DNA from: Planctomycetota bacterium
GTDB taxonomy: Bacteria > Planctomycetota > Planctomycetia > Pirellulales > UBA1268
Length of the DNA stretch: 36,700 nt
Assembly (NCBI GenBank): GCA_003671185.1
Contig: QWPN01000156.1
Coordinates: 1-36,700, forward strand
Direction: 5' to 3'
Below the pieces are notes generated by a model. That model searched no databases, was not told where the DNA came from, and worked only from the letters and a program-made list of their open reading frames with translations. The position numbers and the translations under genes were made by a program. Shown one piece after another: positions 13,614 through 16,491 of the stretch (position 1 is its first letter; each line of letters begins with the position of its first letter).

Positions 13614-15713
13614 ATGGCAGGCACTCTGGAAAAAATCCGCAACATCGGCATCGTGGCCCACATCGATGCCGGGAAGACGACGCTCACCGAGCGGATGCTG
13701 TTTTTCACCAAGACGAGCCACCGGCTCGGCGAGGTCGATCGGGGCACGACGATCACCGACTTCGACCCCGAGGAGCAGGAGCGCGGGATCACGATCTACT
13801 CGGCCGCGGTGTCATTCCGCTGGCAGGACGTGAGCGTGAACCTCATCGACACGCCAGGGCACGTTGACTTCACGGCCGAGGTGGAGCGCAGCCTGCGGGT
13901 GCTGGACGGGGCGGTGGTGGTGTTCTCGGCCCGCGAAGGAGTCGAGGCCCAGAGCGAGACGGTATGGCGGCAGGCCGACAAGTACGGCGTGCCCCGGCTG
14001 GCGCTCGTCAACAAGCTCGACCGCGAGGGGGCGGATTTCTTCGGCACGGTGACCCAGATCGAGAAGCGGCTGGGGGCGCGGCCGCTGGTGCTGCAGATCC
14101 CGCTTGGGCTGGGGCCGCCGCACGTCAACGACCCGTTCCGCGGCCTCGTCGACCTGGTGGAGATGCAGCTGCTCACGTTCCCTCCCAAGGACGAGGCGCT
14201 GGCAGGCGGGGCCGCCCTCGGTGCCGTGACAAGGGGGCCGATCCCGGCCGAACTCGCCGACACGGCCGCCGAGTGGCGGGAGCAATTGGTGTCGAATTTG
14301 TTCGACTTTTCCGACGAACTTGCCGAACTCGCCATGGGCGAGGCGCCGATCCCGGGGGATGCCATCCGCCGGGCGGTTCGGCAGGCCACGATCCGCCGTC
14401 AGGTCGTGCCCGTGCTGGCCGGATCGGCGCTCGACTGCATCGGCATCCAGCCCGTGCTCGACGCCGTCGCCTGGTACCTCCCCAGCCCCGCCGACGTGCC
14501 GCCCGTGGAGGGGCTGGACCCGACCAAGAAGACACCAACGACCATCTCCCGACGGGCCGATTCCCAGGACCCGTTCTGCGGCCTGGTGTTCAAGATCGTG
14601 GCCGAAAAGCATGGCGACCTGTATTTCGTGCGCGTCTACTCCGGCACGCTCAAGGCGGGCAGCCGGGCCTGGAATCCGCTCCAGCAGAAGAAGGAGAACA
14701 TCGCCCAGCTCTGGCACGTGCAGGCCGATCGACGCGAGCAGGTGGACGAGGCCCGGGCCGGTGACATCGTGGGGGTGATCGGCCCCCGTGCCAGCGTCAC
14801 GGGTGACACGCTCTGCGACGCTGCGGCGCCGATCGTGCTGGAGTCGATCCAATTTCCCGAGACCGTGATCTCGATGGCGATCGAACCGGAGACGAGCCTG
14901 GAACGGAAGAAACTGGCCGAGACGCTGGAGATGATGAAGCGACAAGACCCCACGTTCCGGGCCCTGGAAAGCGAGGAGACGGGCCAGACGCTGATCTCGG
15001 GCATGGGGGAGTTGCACCTGGAGGTGATCAGGCATCGGCTGGAGCGGGATTTCAATCTCCATTGCCGCGTCCACAAGCCGCGGGTCAGTTACAAGGAGAC
15101 GGTGGGTCGGGTCGCGACGGTCAGCGGCGAGGCCAACAGGCAGGTGGCGGGCCAGTCGCTGGTGGCCACGGTCACTGTGCGTGCCGAGCCGAACGACCAC
15201 CAGGGCCCGGTGACGGTCGAACAGGGCTGGTTTCCCGAGCAGGAGGCGGTGGCCGCCACGGCGGCGTTGATGACCGAGGCGGTGCGGGAGAGTGCCGAAC
15301 GGGGCGGCCTCAAGGGCTGCCCGCTGTGGGGCGTGCGGATCGTGGTGCTGGAAAGCCCGCTGCCCGAGCCTCCCCCCTCTGACGTGGCAATCCGCATCGC
15401 GGCCGCCGACGCCATCGACAAGCTCCTCAAGGAGGCGGGGACGGTGCTCCTGGAGCCGGTGATGAGGGTGGAGGTCACGGTGCCCGAGGAGCACCTTGGC
15501 GATGTGATCAACGACCTGCAGCAGCGGCGGGCGATCATCACCGCCACCGAAATTCGCGGCGGGGCCACCGTACTCACGGCCGAGGCGCCGCTGGCGAGCA
15601 TGTTCGGTTACTCGGCCGCGGTCCGCAGCGTGAGCCAGGGGCGGGCCAGTTTCACGATGGCCCCGCTCAAGTATGGGCCGGCACCGGCCGAGACGGCCGA
15701 GGCGTTCGTATGA
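13614..15713 (+). CDS. fusA: elongation factor G, divergent (recycling-like type)
   Basis: A 699-residue EF-G. GTPase motifs: AHIDAGKTT (G1), TTITDFDPEEQERGITI (switch I/G2), DTPGHVDF (G3), NKLD (G4), GSALDCIG (G5). Domains II to V are all present, with LISGMGELHLEVIRHRLERDF in domain III and FGYSAAVRSVSQGRASFTM in domain V. Domain IV is altered: the loop usually reading SGGRGQYG is ANRQVAGQS, and the segment usually holding YHDVDSS is PLPEPPPSDV. That pattern resembles mitochondrial EF-G2 and the planctomycete/spirochaete second EF-G, which act in ribosome recycling, so this may not be the translocase. rpsL, rpsG and tuf, the usual partners, are missing. It stands just before the S10 cluster. 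Confidence 0.95.
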   Translation: MAGTLEKIRNIGIVAHIDAGKTTLTERMLFFTKTSHRLGEVDRGTTITDFDPEEQERGITIYSAAVSFRWQDVSVNLIDTPGHVDFTAEVERSLRVLDGAVVVFSAREGVEAQSETVWRQADKYGVPRLALVNKLDREGADFFGTVTQIEKRLGARPLVLQIPLGLGPPHVNDPFRGLVDLVEMQLLTFPPKDEALAGGAALGAVTRGPIPAELADTAAEWREQLVSNLFDFSDELAELAMGEAPIPGDAIRRAVRQATIRRQVVPVLAGSALDCIGIQPVLDAVAWYLPSPADVPPVEGLDPTKKTPTTISRRADSQDPFCGLVFKIVAEKHGDLYFVRVYSGTLKAGSRAWNPLQQKKENIAQLWHVQADRREQVDEARAGDIVGVIGPRASVTGDTLCDAAAPIVLESIQFPETVISMAIEPETSLERKKLAETLEMMKRQDPTFRALESEETGQTLISGMGELHLEVIRHRLERDFNLHCRVHKPRVSYKETVGRVATVSGEANRQVAGQSLVATVTVRAEPNDHQGPVTVEQGWFPEQEAVAATAALMTEAVRESAERGGLKGCPLWGVRIVVLESPLPEPPPSDVAIRIAAADAIDKLLKEAGTVLLEPVMRVEVTVPEEHLGDVINDLQQRRAIITATEIRGGATVLTAEAPLASMFGYSAAVRSVSQGRASFTMAPLKYGPAPAETAEAFV

Positions 15714-15760: not shown

Positions 15761-15789
15761 TTGACAGTCCTCGCCGCCGACTTTAGAGT
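15761..15789 (+). promoter_or_regulatory. sigma70-like promoter of the S10 cluster
   Basis: A perfect -35 TTGACA (15761-15766), a 17-nt spacer and a -10 TAGAGT (15784-15789) lie between the EF-G gene and rpsJ. This is the best promoter match in the window. Transcription would start near 15796, giving a leader of about 160 nt before rpsJ. Confidence 0.75.
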
Positions 15790-15841
15790 TCGAGACTCGA
15801 TCGCTGCGACGCCCCCGGCCCCTGGCCGCAGGTTGGCGTCG

Positions 15842-15866
15842 AAAGGAGCCTTTCACGAGGCTTTTT
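15842..15866 (+). terminator. terminator-like hairpin in the rpsJ leader (possible attenuator)
   Basis: AGCCT-TTCACG-AGGCT is followed directly by TTTT. Flanking AAAGG can extend the stem against the T-run with A-U and G-U pairs. Placed about 50-70 nt after the predicted transcription start, it could end transcripts early and so control the ribosomal cluster, or it may be a remnant terminator of the EF-G gene. Confidence 0.5.
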
Positions 15867-15871
15867 CGGGT

Positions 15872-15898
15872 GCCGCCGGCATGAGTGCCGCTGGCGGC
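15872..15898 (+). promoter_or_regulatory. second leader hairpin before rpsJ
   Basis: GCCGCCGGC (15872-15880) pairs with GCTGGCGGC (15890-15898), nine pairs with one G-U, around a 9-nt loop that contains an ATG. That ATG opens a 20-codon frame ending at 15943, just before the rpsJ ribosome site. It has no Shine-Dalgarno of its own. The structure may take part in leader control. Confidence 0.45.
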
Positions 15899-15956
15899 GG
15901 GCGGTCGACATGCTGCCGGTTGTTCGAGCGTTCGTTGGTTTGACTGGAGTTGTTCA

Positions 15957-16286
15957 GTGGCCGGTCCGACACAAGAGATCATCCGCATCCGGATGGAGGC
16001 CTACGACCACGCTGTGCTCGACCAGAGCGCCGCGGAGATCGTGGACACTGCCAAGCGGACGAATTCCGAGGTTCATGGACCGATCCCGCTGCCCACCCGG
16101 GTCGAGCGGTACACGGTGCTCTCCAGCCCGCACATCGACAAGAAGGCCCGCCAGCAGTACGAAATTCGCACGCACAAGCGGGTCATCGACATCGTGCAGG
16201 CAACCGCCAAGACGATCGAGGCCCTCAACAAACTGAGCCTGCCCGCAGGCGTGGACATCAAGATCAAAGCTTCCTCCCGGTCGTGA
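15957..16286 (+). CDS. rpsJ: 30S ribosomal protein S10
   Basis: A 109-residue S10, part of the 30S head and, in many bacteria, a NusG-binding antitermination factor. Core motifs: [81 protein letters not shown] 15957 is chosen because GGAG lies 7 nt upstream and the first residues then match the family length; the track ORF begins 24 codons earlier. It is the first gene of the S10 cluster, after a promoter and a structured leader. An unusually wide 205-nt gap follows before rplC. Confidence 0.98.
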
Positions 16287-16491
16287 TCGGGATGGAGTTG
16301 GGAATGCAATTCACGGACTCACACTGAAGGAGCGCACGACACGACATGCTTGGAAGGCGTTGTGGGTAAGGCCCGGGAGTCCTCCCTGGCGCTCCCGCAG
16401 CCAACGGCTTCGAGCGTGAAGGCGAGGCACGCACGCATGGCTGCCGCAGGGCGGCGGCCAGTGAAAGCGTGTCGCGACGGCGACCATCATC
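16287..16491 (+). promoter_or_regulatory. structured 205-nt spacer between rpsJ and rplC
   Basis: No gene is supported here. Two RNA structures can be drawn. At 16374-16397, CGGGAG can pair with CTCCCG, or alternatively GGGA with TCCC nearer by, so the two pairings exclude each other. At 16439-16459, GGCTGCCGC-AGG-GCGGCGGCC gives nine pairs (one G-U) with a 3-nt loop, ending 32 nt before the rplC ATG. The spacer could be a regulatory element for the L3-L4 part of the operon, or an internal processing site. Confidence 0.5.

Follow-up and report, generated by a model that had tools for sequence, protein, structure and literature searches.

A candidate ribosomal-protein leader with a conserved four-way junction ahead of rpsJ in a family of Pirellulales

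Introduction

What kind of RNA precedes rpsJ in the S10 operon of a planctomycete, and could it regulate the operon as the leader of Escherichia coli does? In E. coli, uL4 controls its S10 operon by premature termination in the leader, with RNA polymerase paused at an attenuator hairpin and stabilized there by uL4, and conservation of this leader is reported for enterobacteria, Haemophilus and Vibrio alone (PMC10931766). An S10 r-leader has also been described for Firmicutes, including Clostridia (PMC7247131), while a 2020 report of 20 r-leaders has none for Planctomycetes, a phylum that its main text does not mention (PMC7247131). Our literature search found no account of planctomycete S10 leaders. 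The window analyzed here is a 36,700-nt stretch from a planctomycete of the order Pirellulales, and is one of the 166 contigs of a draft genome that is 85% complete. A preliminary description of this DNA had placed a promoter, an attenuator-like hairpin, a second hairpin with an ATG frame, and the rpsJ ribosome site in the leader, and each of these was found at the coordinates it gave (Table 1).

The rpsJ locus and its promoter

A Pfam scan around the leader identified an EF-G-type factor upstream and the gene order rpsJ-rplC-rplD-rplW-rplB-rpsS-rplV downstream. The promoter matches 10 of 12 consensus bases, where 0.1 sites would be expected by chance in the scanned stretch, and it would place the transcription start at about 15795-15797. 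A promoter-like TTGAC...TA...T site lies 5′ of rpsJ in nearly all of the members of the order that were listed, whereas the long structured leader of the junction type described below belongs to the window's family.

Table 1. Features of the rpsJ leader and the adjoining operon start in the window
Feature	Position	Strand	Basis or remark
Sigma-70-type promoter	15761..15789	+	TTGACA 15761-15766, 17-nt spacer, TAGAGT 15784-15789
Closing stem P0/P1, 5′ strand, CGATCGCT	15798..15805	+	Pairs with 15900-15907; covaries in relatives; MFE
Arm P2, GCGACGCC...GGCGTCGA, inner CGGCC/GGCCG	15806..15842	+	Covariation helices 3 and 4; alignment
Arm P3, AAGGAGCCTT-TCAC-GAGGCTTTTT	15843..15866	+	MFE; covariation helix 5
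Arm P4, nine-pair hairpin of the preliminary description	15872..15898	+	Sequence; covariation helix 6
Mini-ORF, 20 codons	15881..15943	+	ATG 15881 in P4 loop, stop TGA 15941-15943; not conserved
Closing stem P1/P0, 3′ strand, GGCGGTCG	15900..15907	+	Covariation helices 1 and 2
Shine-Dalgarno GGAG of rpsJ	15946..15949	+	Outside conserved fold
rpsJ (S10), GTG start	15957..16286	+	Pfam Ribosomal_S10, 3e-36
E2, conserved RNA element	16326..16419	+	rpsJ-rplC gap; R2 match in window, 100.7 bits

A four-way junction in the leader

In the minimum free energy (MFE) fold, positions 15798-15907 of the window form a four-way junction, with a closing stem P0/P1 and three arms, P2, P3 and P4. The attenuator-like hairpin of the preliminary description is P3, and the T-tract assigned to it is the hairpin's own 3′ strand; its core reads AGCCT (15847-15851)-TTCACG-AGGCT (15858-15862)-TTTT, and when A-U and G-U pairs are counted it has ten pairs, 15843-15852 with 15857-15866. 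The nine pairs of P4 join GCCGCCGGC (15872-15880) to GCTGGCGGC (15890-15898) across the loop ATGAGTGCC, and this register is the MFE form in the window, the ten-pair form having -19.5 kcal/mol, with an alternative register, looped by TGAG, that is about 2.5 kcal/mol less stable and matches P4 of leaders L009 and L016. The window leader alone has a folding energy z of -1.55, and 11 of 200 shuffles were equally good, so that its significance comes only from the comparison with relatives.

For that comparison rpsJ was located in related genomes and the DNA upstream of it was compared, and the leaders of several genera share a common plan in which P0/P1, P2, P3 and P4 are followed by the 3′ strand of the closing stem. 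P2 is typically GCGACGCCCGCGGCC...GGCCGC...GTCGC in the relatives, P3 has a GAAAA/UUUUC base and an apical part of very variable length, and the closing 3′ strand is often CTGCGATCGATTGGA. A plain MAFFT alignment was too divergent, with RNAalifold retaining only part of P3, and the seed was for this reason aligned by hand: 19 leaders, drawn from one Pirellulales family and representing several of its genera, were fitted to the fold with loops trimmed and gaps written as N. In this alignment 91.5% of 698 cells are paired, compared with 69.8% when shuffled and 37-48% when slid, though hand fitting and loop trimming make such pair counts lean toward structure. Changes on both sides occur in 31 of the 40 pairs, and each of the six helices contains such pairs in the hand-fitted alignment.

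The covariance model R1, built from the 19-leader seed, served as an independent test of the fold. It recognizes the window at 15795-15912 with 43.9 bits, and it found seven held-out leaders, all 5′ of rpsJ (L131, 39.0 bits; L134, 37.3; L123, 34.1; L128, 33.6; L137, 28.6; L143, 24.4; L140, 20.2). The covariation test that the preliminary description had called for thus came out in favor of a conserved structured RNA, with compensatory changes among the 19 hand-fitted leaders and recovery of held-out leaders by the model. That the arms are chance hairpins in GC-rich sequence might be argued from the single-sequence fold, which barely exceeds shuffles, and from the occasional false match of R1 in GC-rich coding DNA (L155, 45 bits, with neither P3 nor P4), a match that also means that R1 bit scores in such DNA need caution; this reading is contradicted by the covariation and by the held-out leaders that R1 found at rpsJ, and we consider it very unlikely.

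Phylogenetic distribution of the junction

A search of 72 genomes of the family with R1 (E 0.01) gave 22 matches, 20 of them ahead of rpsJ and the remaining two false, in coding DNA. The junction is a conserved, single-copy element on the coding strand, tied to rpsJ and found only ahead of it. Across 247 genomes of the order the R1 matches were confined to the window's family, and no relatives of the leader were found beyond it. The lack of an R1 match is not proof of absence, because the leaders of several members of the window's own genus fit the plan by eye yet score below threshold.

Some members of the family carry only a short leader (L003, L007 and L032/L114) or a single hairpin (L111-L113, L118 and L119), and the junction is therefore dispensable. 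In genus g26 (L111, L112, L113, L118 and L119), the junction is replaced in most species by one long hairpin, e.g., GCCGAAAACCGGCCGAAAAGGTTGTTTTCGGC, and since L120 of the same genus retains the full junction, the leader has been lost or swapped within g26. In genus g24 (L147-L150), P3 seems to be a very long arm closed by GGAAAGAG/CUCUUUC, with an inner UUUUC/GAAAA and no terminator-like stem.

Dispensability in several species, and the single hairpins that take its place in most of one genus, would suit a constitutive, ligand-free 5′ UTR, in which the junction would shield an abundant mRNA at its 5′ end without sensing anything. The fixed order of arms and the conserved motifs nevertheless exceed what protection of a 5′ end would need, and confinement to rpsJ fits the typical r-leader (PMC7247131), so that we judge a ligand-free stabilizer improbable.

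Transcription attenuation, translation, and the mini-ORF

The preliminary description had read the leader as laid out like a transcription attenuator, and for this reading the evidence is mixed: the T-tract is enriched in relatives, but it is lost in sister lineages that keep the plan, and a terminator call in the window and a conserved antiterminator are both absent. Among the 19 core leaders, the 8 nt that follow the GC stem of P3 contain a mean of 5.1 T (background, 1.7), with at least four T in 18 of the 19, and such a T-rich tract after P3 would fit a termination or pause site. In the window itself the tract is only TTTTTCGG, and a scan for a GC stem followed directly by at least five T in 8 called no plus-strand terminator, P3 included, between positions 15000 and 16500. 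A helix scan of the leaders found no conserved alternative antiterminator, yielding only the helices of the structure, their slips, and weak pairing of short G-rich stretches with the T-tract; this is compatible with attenuation, because uL4 in E. coli works via a paused polymerase at the attenuator hairpin. Transcription attenuation at P3 appears possible from these sequence comparisons.

The T-tract of P3 also forms, as its 3′ strand, half of a conserved purine/pyrimidine helix at the base of the arm (helix 5), which counts against attenuation and bears on a second reading, in which the same r-protein leader acts on translation or mRNA stability, either by blocking ribosome access at rpsJ or by exposing a cleavage site, with P3 merely structural and its pyrimidine tract there only to pair with the conserved GAAAA. 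In its favor, the GAAA/UUUC base of P3 is the conserved helix itself, the P3 of the window fails the terminator scan, and sister lineages keep the P3 pairing yet lose the T-tract (GC stem and T-tract are missing, with the P2/P3 plan kept, from L121, L127, L129, L130, L133, L140 and L147-L150). The rpsJ Shine-Dalgarno is also partly paired in the predicted ensembles, with a mean unpaired probability of 0.34, but this value spans 0.06-0.78 and no pairing is shared, and the conserved structure of the window stops about 40 nt short of the Shine-Dalgarno. With the Shine-Dalgarno outside the conserved fold and so variable in predicted accessibility, a common translational lock is not evident, and we regard action on translation or stability as a realistic but minority possibility.

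The 20-codon frame that opens with the ATG in the P4 loop had been noted as a part of the layout, and raises the question of leader-peptide attenuation like that of amino-acid operons, with the choice between hairpins set by translation of the mini-ORF. The ATG does open such a frame in the window, but an ATG within P4 occurs in 3 of the 19 leaders, the closed 20-codon frame is found only in the window, and no Shine-Dalgarno precedes the ATG there. The mini-ORF accordingly fails as a functional part; the ATG in the P4 loop is best seen as a coincidence of sequence, and the mini-ORF as fortuitous. Leader-peptide attenuation was rejected, since no conserved leader ORF with a ribosome site was found in the 19 leaders, and we give it next to no credence.

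Function of the leader

Our preferred reading, in which we place about even confidence, is that this Pirellulales family has, as the 5′ leader of its S10 operon, a cis-acting ribosomal-protein leader, with putative protein binding that acts mainly at P3. Two features of r-leaders are found here, a structure backed by covariation (in the hand-fitted alignment) and a position in the 5′ UTR of r-protein genes (20 of the 22 matches). An operon protein in excess over rRNA would bind the junction, and the first candidates are uL4 and uS10, since these two are the known or named ligands of other leaders of S10 operons. Binding may then act mainly on RNA polymerase at P3, a step that is less certain than the ligand step, with the bound protein stabilizing a pause or a premature end at the T-rich descending strand of P3. 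Action on polymerase is suggested by the conserved structure ending, in the window, about 40 nt before the Shine-Dalgarno without pairing to it. Given the mixed evidence for attenuation and the lack of an evident translational lock, r-leader function is placed well above any specific mode of action.

One close comparator is the E. coli S10 leader, which likewise is structured and separates rpsJ from the promoter of the S10 operon, in an operon that includes rplD, whereas the leader here is a four-way junction in Pirellulales; the two are likened by anatomy and position. Premature termination at a leader hairpin, the model in E. coli, where it depends on uL4 and NusA, is possible in the Pirellulales leader. 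The Firmicutes S10 r-leader precedes the same operon and is likewise a predicted cis-regulatory RNA, the two being compared by description. In the case of the attenuating r-leaders of B. subtilis, bL20 and L10(L12)4, the likeness is r-protein feedback by premature termination; these use alternative terminator and antiterminator folds (PMC10931766), whereas no alternative fold of this type is conserved in the Pirellulales leaders. From the sequence comparison, the junction is best read as a new ribosomal-protein leader, alike in kind to the E. coli L4 leader but not assigned to its family or to any other named one.

A second RNA element between rpsJ and rplC

The 205-nt gap between rpsJ and rplC contains a second conserved element, E2, with a 93-nt core, GGAGCGCACGACACGACATGCTTGGAAGGCGTTGTGGGTAAGG...GCTCCCGCAGCCAACGGCTTCGAGCGTGA, that is far more conserved than the rpsJ leader junction, with 28 invariant columns and 78% mean identity among 22 diverse members. 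RNAalifold on an ordinary MAFFT alignment gives a fold of 27 pairs, in which 92.6% of cells are paired (86.3% when shuffled), and within the apical hairpin 6 of 7 pairs show compensatory changes. The invariant upstream GGAG and an internal CUCC of E2 could pair as a pseudoknot or a competing helix, a pairing that covariation cannot decide because both hardly vary.

The covariance model R2 matches all 60 of the family loci searched and, as a single copy, 47 of 50 sampled genomes of the family, whereas it matched no other genome sampled from the order; among 294 sampled genomes of the phylum it matched the window's own genome only. E2 is present in species that have no rpsJ leader junction (L003, L007 and L032). 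E2 is probably a second r-leader or sensor RNA ahead of rplC. The Archaeoglobi L4 r-leader candidate is comparable in lying ahead of rplC-rplD-rplW-rplB, as E2 does, though it is archaeal, and no Rfam family matched E2.

We tentatively suggest, at somewhat below even confidence, that one S10 operon holds two unrelated, family-specific sensor RNAs, in which the junction controls entry and the near-universal E2 controls the genes from rplC on, so that uS10 and the large-subunit proteins would be regulated separately, possibly by two r-proteins. If true, such a pair of structured RNAs in a single S10 operon would offer a new system in which to study how RNAs of different shape bind one and the same r-protein, and whether a single long operon can be divided into halves under separate control. 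The junction and E2 have defined ends and many natural variants, and are therefore directly testable with purified uL4, uS10 and uL3.

Similarity to other RNAs

Neither the leader nor E2 matched an Rfam family at gathering or relaxed thresholds, the relaxed search giving only a chance match to PYLIS_2 (E 3.4). Mimicry of rRNA was considered as well, and local alignment of the leader and E2 with the 23S and 16S rRNA of relatives exceeded shuffles only in one 24-nt match, where positions 15830-15853 of the window leader resemble the 16S rRNA of G004 (L187; AGGTTGGCGTCGAAAGGAGCCTTT versus AGGTTGGGGTGCCCGAAAGGGAGCCTTT). None of 100 shuffles was as good, but this was one of many comparisons and the resemblance is absent from L120, leaving it a weak lead from sequence.

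Outside the window's family, L021, a member of a different family in the order, carries a strong hairpin of terminator-like form, GGGCCCTCGGCAGCTTCGAGGGCCTTTTT, that lies between rpsJ and its promoter. This hairpin is preceded by GGGCTGGAAACA, which resembles the GGGCTGGAACA found 5′ of P3 in L005.
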